Source of the DNA: a virus
Length of the DNA: 21,804 nt
IMG/VR virus record: IMGVR_UViG_3300035145_002602
Coordinates: 1 to 21,804 of that record
Strand: one strand, 5' to 3'
Positions 2,623-20,398 of this stretch are shown here, piece by piece. The notes below the pieces were generated by a model. The model did no database searches, was not told the DNA's origin, and saw only the letters and a list, made by a program, of their open reading frames with translations. A program made the position numbers and the translations under genes. How positions within the stretch are numbered: position 1 is the stretch's first letter; each line of letters begins with the position of its first letter.

Positions 2623-4221
2623 ATGAGCGAAAGAGAATATATTGTAACACTACATAAAGATGTAGATTATGAAGCATTTGACGCCGAAATGGTGTCGACA
2701 ACAGGAAGTGGAGCAATACCAAAACGTAGTCCTGATGTCGCAAATGCTAGACCAGCATCAAAACGTAATACACATTACATGTTAACAGACGAAGAAGCAG
2801 AAGCACTTCGATCAGATCAGCGTGTAATGGGTGTCGAAATTCCACCACAAGACAGAGACGATATTCAAATTGGCTTTAGAGCCACACAAGTCGGTAATTT
2901 TACAAAAACCACACTTGATTCAGGTGACTTTATTAATTGGGGATTGCGTAGATGTAACGAAAGTACAGATCCTTACGTAGGTAACATTGTTACAGGTGGT
3001 TATGATTACACCTTAGACGGAACTGGTGTTGATGTTGTTATTCAAGACAGCGGTTTACAAGTAGATCACCCAGAGTTCAATGACGCTAACGGTGCTAGCC
3101 GTGTTCAACAAATTGATTGGTATACAGAAAGTGGAATATCTGGAACGCAAAGTGCAAACCATTACAGAGATACAGATGGTCACGGAACTCATTGTGGAGG
3201 TATTGCCGCAGGAATAACTTATGGTTGGGCAAAAAATGCAAGAGTTTATTCGGTCAAAGTTCGCGGTTTAGAAGGTGCTGGTGACAGTAATACTGGAATT
3301 TCTACAAATGATTGTTTTGATGTAATTAAACTTTGGCATCGCAACAAGCCAGTAGATCCTGCAACGGGTGTAAAACGTCCTACAGTGGTTAATATGAGTT
3401 GGGGCTATGGTGGCTACTACAGATTTAATGCTAATTCAGGACATTCAATTACATACAGAGGTACTACATATACAGGAACAGATGTAGATAGCTCAAGTAA
3501 AAGAGAAGGCTTCGGATTGCCGGCAGAAGCATTTGCAGGAGGATTTGGAACGAGTGCATATTATAGATACAATTCTAGAGTCCCATCAGTTGATGCTGAT
3601 ATAGAGGAATTAGTTGACGAAGGTGTGCATGTTTGTATTGCGGCAGGCAACGGTTATCATAAGCATGATGTTGTAGGCGGTACTGATTATAATAACTCAG
3701 CAACATGCGAAACATATAACTTTACATTCAGTTCTTTTCAAAGCGGCACATTCAATTACCATCAAGGTTCATCGCCTCATTATGATGGAGCATTTAAAGT
3801 TGGTAATGTTGATAGTACAATTAATGCAGGGGGACTTGATCAAAAAGCAGTTAGTTCCGAATGTGGTCCAGCTGTAAACATATATGCTCCTGGTACAAAC
3901 ATAATGAGTTGTACCAGTACAACTAACAAATTTACAGATGGTGCTTATCCCCAAGATAGCAACTTTAGAATTTGTAATATTAGTGGTACCTCAATGGCTT
4001 CTCCACAAGTTTGTGGTTTGGTAGCACTGTTCGCACAACTTAATCCTGAAAAAACTCCGGCTGAAATGCTACAATTTGTATTTGACAATGCAACCAATCA
4101 GCTGTATACTACAGGTAATGATAACGACTATTCAAATAATAGAAGTATTATGGGAAGTCCTCAAAGATTTTTGTTTAACAAATTTAACAGCGGAATACAA
4201 TTGACGATAGGAAGTTCATGA
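2623..4221 (+). CDS. Subtilisin-family (S8) serine protease
   Basis: A 532-aa subtilase. Seen: an N-terminal propeptide-like region (MSEREYIVTLHKDVDYEAF, residues 1-about 80, resembling inhibitor I9), then the catalytic triad in family context: D142 (VVIQDSGLQVDHPEF), H187 (DGHGTHCGG) and S457 (SGTSMASPQVCG), with oxyanion-hole N343 (IAAGNG). All key residues are present, so it should be active. No signal peptide or membrane segment is visible, so it acts in the infected cell or in the virion. AAGGA lies 8 nt before the start, and a late-type box and hairpin precede it, suggesting late expression. The T4 prohead protease gp21 is a different family. The target could be capsid, tail or host proteins. 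Confidence 0.9.
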   Translation: MSEREYIVTLHKDVDYEAFDAEMVSTTGSGAIPKRSPDVANARPASKRNTHYMLTDEEAEALRSDQRVMGVEIPPQDRDDIQIGFRATQVGNFTKTTLDSGDFINWGLRRCNESTDPYVGNIVTGGYDYTLDGTGVDVVIQDSGLQVDHPEFNDANGASRVQQIDWYTESGISGTQSANHYRDTDGHGTHCGGIAAGITYGWAKNARVYSVKVRGLEGAGDSNTGISTNDCFDVIKLWHRNKPVDPATGVKRPTVVNMSWGYGGYYRFNANSGHSITYRGTTYTGTDVDSSSKREGFGLPAEAFAGGFGTSAYYRYNSRVPSVDADIEELVDEGVHVCIAAGNGYHKHDVVGGTDYNNSATCETYNFTFSSFQSGTFNYHQGSSPHYDGAFKVGNVDSTINAGGLDQKAVSSECGPAVNIYAPGTNIMSCTSTTNKFTDGAYPQDSNFRICNISGTSMASPQVCGLVALFAQLNPEKTPAEMLQFVFDNATNQLYTTGNDNDYSNNRSIMGSPQRFLFNKFNSGIQLTIGSS

Positions 4222-10259: not shown

Positions 10260-10943
10260 TTGAGCAAAGCAATACAAATAAAAACAAAACTAGAAGAAGC
10301 TGGTATCCGTTATTGGGCCGGCGACAACATTTCAGAAGTCTTACAAAAAGGCGACAAAGAACAACTTATTGAAGAAGCAACTTTAGCTTTCAATCAAGTA
10401 TTAGATGCATTAGTAATTGATCGATACAACGATCCTAATTCACAAGGCACTGCAAGGCGTCTTGCAAAAATGTATTTTAATGAAATTATGGCAGGTCGAT
10501 ATGATCCCATTCCAAGTGCAACAGCATTTCCAAATGATTCAGATGAACGTTACGAAGGTATGCTTGTAGTTCGAAGTGAACTTAAAAGTATGTGTTCGCA
10601 TCATCACCAGCCTGTATCAGGTGTAGCATACATTGGTATTATTGCCGCGAACAAACTAATTGGATTATCTAAATATACACGTATCGCACAGTGGTGTGCA
10701 AGACGTGGTACACTGCAAGAAGAACTTGCAAATGATATTGCACGTGAAATTGCAAAAGCAACAGGCGCAGAACATTTAGGTGTATACATACAAGCAACAC
10801 ACGGTTGTTGTGAGAATCGTGGCATTATGGCACACAGTAGTCTTACACAAACAACAGTTTTACGTGGTGCATTTAAGAATGACCCAGGCACTAAAAAAGA
10901 ATTTATGGATAATATTAAACTACAACAGGAGTTTGCTTGCTAA
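10260..10943 (+). CDS. folE: GTP cyclohydrolase I
   Basis: A 227-aa GTP cyclohydrolase I. Seen: the zinc ligands C112 and H115 (SMCSHHHQPVSG) and C183 (THGCCENRG), and the family block KLIGLSKYTRIAQWCARR (132-149) that lines the active site, close to the E. coli VIGLSKINRI segment. It opens GTP to dihydroneopterin triphosphate, the first step of both folate and 7-deazaguanine synthesis. With the QueD-like protein, QueE and DpdA here, the deazaguanine role is the more likely one. The start is TTG at 10260, with GGAG 7 nt upstream. It has its own promoter at 10173 and heads a new unit that runs on to queE. Confidence 0.93.
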   Translation: MSKAIQIKTKLEEAGIRYWAGDNISEVLQKGDKEQLIEEATLAFNQVLDALVIDRYNDPNSQGTARRLAKMYFNEIMAGRYDPIPSATAFPNDSDERYEGMLVVRSELKSMCSHHHQPVSGVAYIGIIAANKLIGLSKYTRIAQWCARRGTLQEELANDIAREIAKATGAEHLGVYIQATHGCCENRGIMAHSSLTQTTVLRGAFKNDPGTKKEFMDNIKLQQEFAC

Positions 10944-11859: not shown

Positions 11860-11965
11860 AGAAATTTGGAAGTCAAGCTACGGTGAAGGTACTCAGTTTG
11901 ATTTAGATTACGGCAAATTGCTAATTATTGCACTTTGCATTTATATAGCAGTGCAGGTGTCCTAA
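11840..11965 (+). CDS. Small single-span membrane protein (41 aa)
   Basis: A 41-aa ORF with an excellent ribosome binding site (GGAGG, 11829-11833, 6 nt before ATG 11840). The N-terminal half is charged (MKIKDIKEIWKSSYGEG) and the C-terminal half is a hydrophobic stretch (KLLIIALCIYIAVQVS) long enough for one membrane span. It overlaps the SGNH hydrolase by 20 nt, and its stop overlaps the queE start as TAATG, so the reading frame fills the gap between the two genes exactly. The function is unknown; small membrane proteins of phages often act on the host envelope or in superinfection exclusion. Confidence 0.6.
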   Translation: MKIKDIKEIWKSSYGEGTQFDLDYGKLLIIALCIYIAVQVS

Positions 11966-12858
11966 TGAAACTAAGATATTCAGAAGCATTTTACAGTGTA
12001 CAAGGCGAAGGTAAGTTTGTAGGAGTACCTAGTGTATTCCTACGTACATTCGGTTGTAACTTTCGTTGTATGAACTTTGGTACAAACGAAACAAAGGACA
12101 GATGGACATTGCATAAAGAAGGTATAAAACATAACCCTGAAGTAGCTGATCTTATCGCAAAAGGTGTACATGAAACTACAAAAGAATTTAATGACTTGCC
12201 GATTATCCACACAGGTTGTGATACATATGCAAGTATCTATCCCGAGTTCAAACACTTCAATAAACTTGCAGAAGTAGATGAAGTAGTCGAACATCTTCTT
12301 TCACTTACTCCAGAAGGTAAGTGGACTATGGACAATGGTCAAGACATTCATTTGATCATGACTGGCGGTGAGCCGTTGTTAGCGTGGCAACGACTATACA
12401 TCGATTTATTCGAACATCCACGTATGAAGGATTTGAAAAATGTTACATTTGAAACAAACACTACACAATCTTTACACGACGATTTCTTCAACTATCTCAC
12501 AGATCAAGACAGATTTGAAGTTACTTGGAGTTGTTCCCCAAAACTTAGTGTTAGCGGAGAACCTTGGGAAACTGCTATACTCCCTAACGTTGCTCGTGAG
12601 TATAGCCTCGTTGACGGTAGCGACATTTATCTTAAGTTTGTGGTTGCTAATACTAGAGACTTTGACGAAGTTACAAGAGCTGTGGAGGCGTATCGTGATG
12701 CAGGCGTCGAGTGTCCAGTATATCTTATGCCGCTTGGCGGACGTTCGGAAGAGTATAATCTCAATGTTCAAGAAGTCGCCGAAGCATGTATGGAGCGAGG
12801 TTGGCGCTTCACACCAAGACTCCACATCTCATTATTCGGAAACGCATGGGGAACATGA
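11965..12858 (+). CDS. queE: 7-carboxy-7-deazaguanine synthase, radical SAM enzyme with split cluster motif
   Basis: A 297-aa QueE-like radical SAM enzyme. Seen: EAFYSVQGEGKFVGVPSVFL (7-26), the QueE N-terminal signature; cysteines C31 and C35 (GCNFRC) and C85 (HTGCDTYAS, matching WCDTxY of QueE), so the cluster motif reads CX3C-X49-C instead of CX3CX2C; and the SAM-binding TGGEPLL (133-139). It ends in a typical RLHISLFGN segment. QueE contracts 6-carboxytetrahydropterin to 7-carboxy-7-deazaguanine. ATG 11965 overlaps the stop of the small membrane protein; an upstream in-frame start at 11935 would add ten residues not seen in the family. Activity requires C85 to be the third ligand. Confidence 0.85.
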   Translation: MKLRYSEAFYSVQGEGKFVGVPSVFLRTFGCNFRCMNFGTNETKDRWTLHKEGIKHNPEVADLIAKGVHETTKEFNDLPIIHTGCDTYASIYPEFKHFNKLAEVDEVVEHLLSLTPEGKWTMDNGQDIHLIMTGGEPLLAWQRLYIDLFEHPRMKDLKNVTFETNTTQSLHDDFFNYLTDQDRFEVTWSCSPKLSVSGEPWETAILPNVAREYSLVDGSDIYLKFVVANTRDFDEVTRAVEAYRDAGVECPVYLMPLGGRSEEYNLNVQEVAEACMERGWRFTPRLHISLFGNAWGT

Positions 12859-13380: not shown

Positions 13381-13778
13381 TGCGTGACGACTTAATGGTT
13401 CAACAACAAGTTGAATCAGTTTGGCAACACATGGTAGGTGTAATCTGTTTGAACCAAACAAGTAGAAAGCAAGTAAAACGTGTTTTACCTAAATTGTTTG
13501 AAGTATGTCCCACACCAGAAAGTCTACTAAAAACCACGCCTAAACTTTTAAAAATGTTATTACAACCTTTAGGTATGGTCAATATACGTGAAAACCGTAT
13601 ACGTAGAATGTCTCAAGACTTTTTAACATGGGATGGTGATGATGCAACTAAATTATACGGTATAGGCAAGTATGGTTCAGACAGTTATAGACTTTTTTAT
13701 AAAAAAGAACTTCCAGAAGATGTAGGAGACCATGAATTAAAACGATATATTGAAGAAGAATTTAAGGTTGACAAATAG
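13377..13778 (+). CDS. HhH-GPD DNA glycosylase, MBD4-like
   Basis: A 133-aa compact helix-hairpin-helix DNA glycosylase. Seen: LICLNQTS-type opening (MVGVICLNQTSRKQVKRVLP, 19-38), LLQPLGMVNIRENRI (61-75), the hairpin LYGIGKYGSDSYRLF (93-107) and the catalytic Asp118 in DVGDHELKRY. The same order occurs in the glycosylase domain of MBD4 (LNRTSGK, LLKPLGLYDLRA, LHGIGKYGNDSYRIF, EDHKLNKY), which removes T or U from G mismatches. The iron-sulphur cysteines of endonuclease III are absent. It probably repairs deaminated bases in phage DNA or handles modified bases. A promoter for the exonuclease begins inside its last codons. Confidence 0.8.
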   Translation: MMRDDLMVQQQVESVWQHMVGVICLNQTSRKQVKRVLPKLFEVCPTPESLLKTTPKLLKMLLQPLGMVNIRENRIRRMSQDFLTWDGDDATKLYGIGKYGSDSYRLFYKKELPEDVGDHELKRYIEEEFKVDK

Positions 13779-13796
13779 AACATTATATGCAATAAT
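13768..13796 (+). promoter_or_regulatory. Sigma70-like promoter for the exonuclease gene
   Basis: GGTTGACA (-35 at 13768-13773), a 17-nt spacer and AATAAT (13791-13796, 5 of 6 but lacking the first T); TAATAT with a 19-nt spacer is an alternative -10. The AATATACT that follows matches the folE promoter at the same place. Confidence 0.5.
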
Positions 13797-15288: not shown

Positions 15289-15511
15289 AATAAACACATT
15301 GCCAATACAACAATTTATTAATGTTGTCAAAGGTGCAGATGCCGCAAAAAAGCGTGAAATAACAATTAATATAGATACTGCTAAACGCCTTGCATTTACA
15401 CTCGGGGAAACAATGGCGAAACTAAATGGTGATTTAGAAACAATGCTAAAGAACAAAAAAGAGCAAGAAGAAACAATCAAAGTTACTATGGACGGCGGCA
15501 ATACCTGGTAG
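15275..15511 (+). CDS. Small hypothetical protein (78 aa)
   Basis: A 78-aa protein, helical in most of its length (QFINVVKGADAAKKREITI, then DTAKRLAFTLGETMAKLNGDLETMLKNKKEQEE). I recognise no characterised domain. It overlaps the preceding gene by 14 nt. A GGAG (15258-15261) lies 13 nt upstream of ATG 15275, a little far, so translation may be coupled. Proteins of this kind recur in marine T4-like phages without a known role. Confidence 0.6.
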   Translation: MQKDEINTLPIQQFINVVKGADAAKKREITINIDTAKRLAFTLGETMAKLNGDLETMLKNKKEQEETIKVTMDGGNTW

Positions 15512-15538
15512 AAAACTACGCATTTAACCTAAAAAAGA

Positions 15539-15546
15539 GATAAATA
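15539..15546 (+). promoter_or_regulatory. Candidate T4-type late promoter box
   Basis: GATAAATA matches the T4 late box TATAAATA at 7 of 8 positions. It ends 30 nt before ATG 15577. The expected start, 6-7 nt downstream, falls within the left arm of the hairpin at 15546-15578. Confidence 0.6.
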
Positions 15547-15578
15547 TATGCGTATATTATATTAAGGAATACGCATAT
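15546..15578 (+). promoter_or_regulatory. Hairpin pairing the start codon of the 15577 gene
   Basis: ATATGCGTAT (15546-15555) and ATACGCATAT (15569-15578) form a perfect 10-bp stem, extended by a T-G pair into the G of the ATG. The 13-nt loop carries the Shine-Dalgarno TAAGGA (15563-15568). In read-through mRNA the start codon would be paired. mRNA from the late box would begin inside the left arm and be free to translate. Confidence 0.65.
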
Positions 15579-15861
15579 GAGTAGACCAAAGCCAACAGTT
15601 CTATTAGAAACAATAGATAAAAAAACTTACAAAGGTGAACAGGTTCTCCAAGCTGACGCTATATGGGCTGTCTTCTATATGGGAGAACCTTTTAATTTGA
15701 AAAGTTTTAATGTTTTGACTAATTATCCAGGGCCTAAGTATAAGAAGACTAGTTTTTCTAATCCCGGACATGCAATTAATCTTGCAAAAAAACTAAATGA
15801 TACTTTTAGCACAGATGAATTTTCTGTGTATAAATTATCCTCAGGCGATAAAGTTGCCTAA
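15577..15861 (+). CDS. Conserved hypothetical protein (94 aa), probably late
   Basis: A 94-aa basic protein. Seen: PTVLLETIDKKTYKGEQVL (6-24), AIWAVFYMGEPFNLKSF (28-44), and YPGPKYKKTSFSNPGHAINLAKKLN (50-74), which reads like a small alpha/beta domain with a positively charged face. I know no function; similar proteins are common in marine T4-like phages. A T4-late-type box and a start-codon hairpin precede it, so expression is probably late and actively blocked in early read-through mRNA. The stop overlaps the next start (TAATG). Confidence 0.68.
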   Translation: MSRPKPTVLLETIDKKTYKGEQVLQADAIWAVFYMGEPFNLKSFNVLTNYPGPKYKKTSFSNPGHAINLAKKLNDTFSTDEFSVYKLSSGDKVA

Positions 15862-16241
15862 TGACAAATAAAACTACTCTAACAAAAGTTTTTTTAAAAC
15901 AATTAGACAAGAGTACAGATGAAACTTCTGTTAAACAATACATGCCTATATGGTGGCAAAACACCCGTAGTAAAGACAAAGGTGGTTTAAGATTAACAGA
16001 CGAAGGTTATAAGATTTTACAGGATATCGGATTAGCAGTATACGATATTCCGTTTCCGCCAGACATGCCTATGACTACACAAGTCATAATATTCTTAGAT
16101 CAATTTATAGATTGCCCATATTACATCACAAATCGTAGTATCATTGTAACGAACGAAAAGAAAGCGGTCGAACTAACTCTTTTTTCTGGCGATTTACGTA
16201 AATATGGGCTTATAAAAGCAATGAAAAGATCAAAAAAATAG
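15861..16241 (+). CDS. Conserved hypothetical protein (126 aa)
   Basis: A 126-aa protein. Seen: YMPIWWQNTRSKDKGGLRLTDEGYKIL (27-53), a winged-helix-like helix pair, then FPPDMPMTTQVIIFLDQFIDCPYYIT and a basic end SGDLRKYGLIKAMKRSKK. The block LDQFIDCPYYITNRSIIVTNEKKAVEL looks strongly constrained. I cannot name a family; a DNA-binding role would suit the basic ends and helix pattern but is unproven. It overlaps the previous stop by one base and ends the transcription unit before the promoter at 16294. Confidence 0.68.
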   Translation: MTNKTTLTKVFLKQLDKSTDETSVKQYMPIWWQNTRSKDKGGLRLTDEGYKILQDIGLAVYDIPFPPDMPMTTQVIIFLDQFIDCPYYITNRSIIVTNEKKAVELTLFSGDLRKYGLIKAMKRSKK

Positions 16242-20390: not shown

Positions 20391-20398
20391 CATAAATA
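20391..20398 (+). promoter_or_regulatory. Candidate T4-type late promoter box for the tail-fibre gene
   Basis: CATAAATA matches the T4 late box at 7 of 8 positions and ends 31 nt before ATG 20430. The gene behind it is structural, as expected for late transcription. Confidence 0.6.

Follow-up and report, generated by a model that had tools for sequence, protein, structure and literature searches.

A conserved phage gene with a T4 gene e-like leader: a start-codon hairpin that a predicted late transcription start would remove

In phage T4, the leaders of e, 49, soc and I-TevI are arranged so that the downstream side of a late promoter provides the 5' arm of a structure over the start codon or the Shine-Dalgarno sequence (PMC3014915), and control of this kind has been shown or implied for e, segB, I-TevII, 49 and I-TevI (PMC3014915). 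The T4 late promoter box occupies positions -13 to -6 relative to the transcription start (PMC1524935). T4-like cyanophages use NATAAATA as late promoters, which is the box described below with its first base free, located before structural genes (PMC2984593). Hairpins before homing endonuclease genes (mobE of Aeh1, segB and I-TevII) also lower translation initiation through RNA structure, and the T4 cases among them combine this with a late promoter (PMC3014915).

The locus described here lies in a 21,804-nt stretch of viral DNA, a genome fragment that was analyzed as a whole and is referred to as the window. A preliminary description of this DNA had claimed that a 10-bp stem pairs the ATG at 15577 and places the Shine-Dalgarno sequence in the loop, and that the left arm of this stem starts on the last base of a late-type box. 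Both claims were confirmed from the sequence: positions 15546-15555 pair perfectly with positions 15569-15578 around a 13-nt loop (15556-15568), the A and T of the ATG (15577-15579) fall within the right arm, and position 15546 is common to the box and the left arm. The features of the locus are as follows.

13768-13796, + strand: sigma-70-like promoter that matches the consensus at 11 of 12 bases and lies ahead of the exonuclease gene, a candidate source of early read-through RNA; such sites cluster here in relatives.
15515-15528, + strand: upstream element ACTRCGYAKWTAAC, a partial copy of the left arm and loop, identified by sequence.
15539-15546, + strand: putative gp55-type late promoter box GATAAATA, identified by sequence; -13 to -6 relative to the predicted start.
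15546-15555, + strand: left arm of the hairpin, ATATGCGTAT, supported by sequence, covariation and folding; the predicted late RNA retains only GUAU (15552-15555).
15552, + strand: predicted late transcription start, placed at the last A of the box plus 6 as in T4 (PMC1524935); the box-to-ATG spacing of relatives agrees.
15564-15568, + strand: Shine-Dalgarno sequence AAGGA, in the loop, identified by sequence.
15569-15578, + strand: right arm of the hairpin, ATACGCATAT, containing the A and U of the start codon, supported by sequence, covariation and folding.
15577-15861, + strand: gene for a conserved 94-aa phage protein, the gene that the proposed switch would control; relatives in viral contigs and named phages, no family match.
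15861-16241, + strand: 126-aa open reading frame (ORF), identified by sequence, whose ATG overlaps the stop codon of the 94-aa gene (TAATG).

By itself, a 10-bp hairpin is not beyond chance in the window. Two perfect stems of at least 10 bp with loops of 3-20 nt were found, compared with 0.88 expected from dinucleotide shuffles, and 14 of 60 shuffles reached two; the case therefore rests on the position of the hairpin and on its conservation.

As judged from its sequence, GATAAATA is a gp55-type late promoter. Nearly all distinct homologous leaders (181 of 185) carry the box, as ATAAATA in 167 and as CTAAATA in 14. In the larger contigs of relatives, ATAAATA was found 12-35 nt before ORFs more often than the mean of 20 control words of the same composition; in G003, for example, it occurred 18 times, whereas the control words averaged 2.9 and none exceeded 5. 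Very long ORFs of 1000-2300 aa are among the genes that follow it in relatives. Within the window ATAAATA is rarer than expected (4 copies versus 10.9), and its two intergenic copies are located 30-31 nt upstream of ORFs, the other one (20392-20398) preceding a gene whose product contains an Mtd_N domain (tropism determinant). Genes encoding late sigma factors of the T4 gp55 family were found in 10 of the 12 relatives searched, including PA5oct, Phosso, Atu_ph07 and SCTP-2; none was found in the 21.8 kb of the window, which represents only part of a genome.

The T4 spacing of box and start (-13 to -6) leads to a predicted +1 at 15552. Moreover, the distance between box and ATG in marine contigs peaks sharply at 5 nt (22 cases versus 0.6 in control words); under the T4 spacing, +1 would fall exactly on the A of the ATG in these cases, an independent sign that fits this spacing. 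Late boxes 5 nt before an ATG were observed in the marine contigs G001-G007 (loci L086-L117 and L288-L307) and also at position 144985 of PA5oct, and, with T4 spacing, the mRNAs of these late genes would be leaderless. Similar proteins keep the 5-nt spacing across phages, e.g., MAISTINIGT and MPISTINIGT in G005 and G006. A 5-nt peak was not found in T4.

The predicted folding of the leader (37 °C, as for all energies given here) depends on where the RNA starts. For RNAs starting at 15300-15539, the main stem forms with a probability (P) of about 0.86-1.0 (0.95-1.0 for the core pairs), leaving the AUG unpaired with a probability of only 0.12-0.17. The stem is still predicted for an RNA starting at 15550 (P about 0.99), and is lost for starts at 15551-15554 (P at most 0.05, AUG unpaired about 0.9), so that the predicted start at 15552 falls just beyond this edge. 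The upstream copy at 15515-15528 was considered as a competitor for the left arm, and the core pairs of the main stem (P at least 0.95 in read-through RNA) leave little room for such a role.

These features suggest a translation switch of the T4 gene e type, set by the position of transcription start, a reading to which we assign a probability of about 0.85. Read-through RNA from the upstream early and replication genes would carry both arms, and the hairpin would then cover the start codon and shut the ribosome binding site (RBS), meaning that early in infection neither the 94-aa protein nor, probably, the product of the overlapping 126-aa ORF would be made. Late in infection, RNA polymerase carrying a phage gp55-type sigma factor would initiate at about 15552, within the left arm; the mRNA would retain four of the ten left-arm bases, no hairpin could form and the gene would be translated. 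For T4 gene e, long and short leaders are reported to differ about 100-fold. The inclusion of the 126-aa ORF is based on the TAATG overlap, which suggests that the two ORFs are probably translated together.

The transcriptional setting is consistent with this proposal. Strong sigma-70-like promoters (11 of 12 bases) were found on the + strand of the window at 13768, 16294 and 17459, and those of relatives cluster about 1.8-1.9 kb upstream as well as 0.6-0.8 and 1.8-1.9 kb downstream of the 94-aa gene, with no cluster within 100 bp upstream of it. The upstream genes are co-directional with the 94-aa gene, and no terminator-like site was found on the + strand between 14771 and this gene. Since early-type promoters flank the gene, none lies directly before it and no terminator-like site was found in between, the 94-aa gene is, from the arrangement of predicted signals, a late unit embedded in a region open to co-directional transcription from early-type promoters, which is the situation of the T4 switch. 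Other genes of the window include a protease-like gene (2623-4221), a GTP cyclohydrolase gene (10260-10943) and a QueE-like radical SAM gene (11935-12858), the latter two suggesting a putative 7-deazaguanine pathway. A 240-aa ORF (1863-2585) was suspected to encode a sliding clamp, a possibility unsupported by profile searches, where its sole match was phrog_12062 (unknown function).

At least 599 relatives of the 94-aa protein were found in a scan of viral contigs, and annotated phages with a homologue are PA5oct and its kin, Phosso, Atu_ph07 and Salicola phage SCTP-2; the SCTP-2 version, used as a query against the viral contigs, gave no match. The protein is basic (pI 9.3) and had no sequence match in Pfam, NCBIfam or PDB, including any to T4-type lysozyme (gene e), and no match worth the name in PHROGs. 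Its AlphaFold model has a pLDDT of 95, and a Foldseek search of this model against PDB and BFVD gave no convincing fold match beyond relatives from uncultured phages; a Tic22-like fold, indicated by weak matches (Z about 5), was set aside. The neighbourhood of the gene is broadly kept: upstream, most relatives carry a gene for an exonuclease or a DNA polymerase I-like protein, joined by a glutaredoxin gene in Phosso and Atu_ph07, and an ATPase gene lies downstream of the homologues.

Among the 185 distinct leaders, 108 share the left-arm type of the window (class 1), and their two arms change together. A left-arm GCG pairs with a right-arm CGC in 72 of 77 cases, the remaining five being G-U compatible, and a left-arm ACG faces CGT in 26 of 31. 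In a MAFFT alignment made without reference to the structure, 92.9% of cells were paired, compared with at most 52.3% when the partners were slid, and the covariation score was 0.191 versus 0.118 for shuffled alignments, with none of 500 shuffles reaching the observed value. On a tree built from the flanking DNA starting at the gene, eight well-supported independent differences on the left side were identified; the right side follows in nearly all of them and never changes in the opposite direction (p = 0.0078). A tree of the 94-aa gene alone was too weak for this comparison, yielding three supported pairs. G-U pairs occur in 36 of the 108 class-1 stems and loop lengths range from 6 to 19 nt, which favours a structure formed in RNA over a DNA dyad.

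Further analysis addressed leaders with unrelated sequences by calculating how much free energy it costs to open the RBS (-13 to +3) in the read-through RNA, in the late RNA and in an RNA whose upstream part was taken from a foreign phage. For class-1 leaders (70 clusters), the mean values were 9.11 (own), 3.22 (late) and 7.63 (foreign) kcal/mol. For the unrelated leaders (47 clusters) they were 8.20, 3.11 and 4.99 kcal/mol, respectively, and the own upstream part was more inhibitory than the foreign one in 36 of the 47 clusters (p = 6e-8). By comparison, 83 other late genes of marine contigs showed no group effect (4.49, 2.12 and 4.25 kcal/mol, p = 0.53), and 61 other late genes of PA5oct and Phosso gave 6.83, 3.42 and 5.23 kcal/mol (p = 0.04). 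As a positive control, the measure was applied to T4, where the top 7 of 27 entries include e (both promoters), segB, I-TevII, 49 and I-TevI; soc was missed. Switch-like leaders were also seen on other late genes, i.e., Phosso (PV764938) +129695, PA5oct +135020, G003 81330 and G001 3085, and in the Phosso example AATAAATACTCTGTTAATTCCCGCCAAGGAGTACAGAGT precedes the ATG. Among the late genes tested in PA5oct and Phosso, 31% scored within the highest 4% when compared with foreign upstream parts.

The unrelated leaders appear to reach this result by different structures. Some (L145 and L265) have new stems adjoining the box, and in others (L251, L226, L247, L219 and PA5oct) the Shine-Dalgarno region finds its pairing partner upstream of the box, leaving the box in the loop; in both layouts, according to the folding predictions, a start at the box strips off the inhibiting arm. 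Eleven leaders carry the box just 6-10 nt before the ATG, leaving no space for a Shine-Dalgarno sequence; their late mRNA might be translated almost without a leader, which would be another route to the same result. Some homologues showed no blocking by this measure. The leaders L144, L150 and L169, which lack a start-codon hairpin, carry the perfect palindrome AGTAATATACGTATATTACT upstream of the box instead. On balance, we lean towards the view that gating of translation by the late start is ancient in the 94-aa gene family and has been kept by selection across giant and marine phages, while the RNA has been rebuilt repeatedly (an arm beside the box; an anti-Shine-Dalgarno sequence upstream with the box in the loop; the box itself as an arm; no Shine-Dalgarno sequence and a nearly leaderless late mRNA), with leaderless late mRNAs as a second common tie to the late start in the marine branch. 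With regard to the preliminary description, its proposal that a late start inside the left arm would abolish the stem agrees with the predicted start and with the predicted loss of the stem from 15551 on, and compensatory arm changes in related phages, which it had named as a check, were found as the eight independent paired changes above. The likeness to T4 gene e that it had drawn thus appears well supported by the promoter, the predicted folding, the covariation and the retention of the same logic in most unrelated leaders.

A different role for the hairpin would be that of an RNA operator bound by a protein, for which the basic 94-aa product (pI 9.3) would be a candidate, with the late promoter merely nearby. 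The arms and the loop are conserved beyond what pairing requires, and in an exact-pattern scan of viral contigs all 80 hairpins among the 80 loci listed precede a homologue of the 94-aa gene, which would suit such an operator. However, the loop varies from 6 to 19 nt, an arm is placed on the promoter, and other branches have leaders of unrelated sequence and shape that still depend on sequence upstream of the late start; we consider this explanation unlikely, even though an operator and a start-gated switch could act together.

Conservation of the left arm also bears on the idea that the repeat acts as DNA, either as a dyad at the start site that a regulator recognises or as an extended late promoter. 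Its TRCGTA is nearly invariant in class-1 leaders, more so than pairing requires, and the ACTRCGYAKWTAAC-type element is present in 59 of the 108, mostly 8-11 nt upstream of GATAAATA at a nearly fixed spacing; together, these observations make an additional DNA-level or protein-binding role of the left arm possible. As the whole explanation, however, a DNA function is very unlikely, given that the G-U pairs noted above preserve an RNA stem and break a DNA dyad, that the spacing of the half-sites is freely variable, and that the motif seldom occurs elsewhere in the genomes and is absent from other late promoters. Constitutive damping of translation on all transcripts (attenuation or an RNA thermometer), unlinked to the start site, would fit an AU-rich stem over the start codon and a true start at or before 15550, which would keep the stem (P about 0.99), but is hardly credible because the T4 spacing and the 5-nt peak both indicate 15552, beyond the edge, and because late RNA is predicted to be open in most leaders.

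If the start-gated switch is real, a control mechanism familiar from a few T4 genes would be a widespread and durable timing device for one phage gene, and the conserved, unstudied 94-aa protein would be marked as one barred from early synthesis. The cultured relatives PA5oct, Phosso and Atu_ph07 make the switch testable. Logic that outlives sequence would clearly exemplify selection acting on how an RNA structure is placed with respect to a promoter. Moreover, the RBS-opening measure is usable wherever a phage has T4-type late promoters, and the leaderless peak allows the late start position to be estimated from sequence, even for phages that were never cultivated.

The proposed mechanism adds one more example to a form of control already known in T4, and is unusual in its breadth, in the gene controlled and in how frequently the RNA has been replaced with the logic kept. 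As in the T4 e-type leaders, the long RNA is predicted to be closed and the late RNA open, giving the same computed signature; in contrast to them, the gene and the phages here are unrelated, one hairpin type is found with covariation on more than 100 distinct contigs, and distant relatives build the blocking RNA differently. The cyanophage NATAAATA promoters share the box, whereas the portion of that source available to us describes no start-codon hairpin with them (PMC2984593). Unlike the genes behind the homing endonuclease hairpins, the gene controlled here seems not to be a mobile element and looks instead like a conserved gene of core type whose neighbourhood is fixed.
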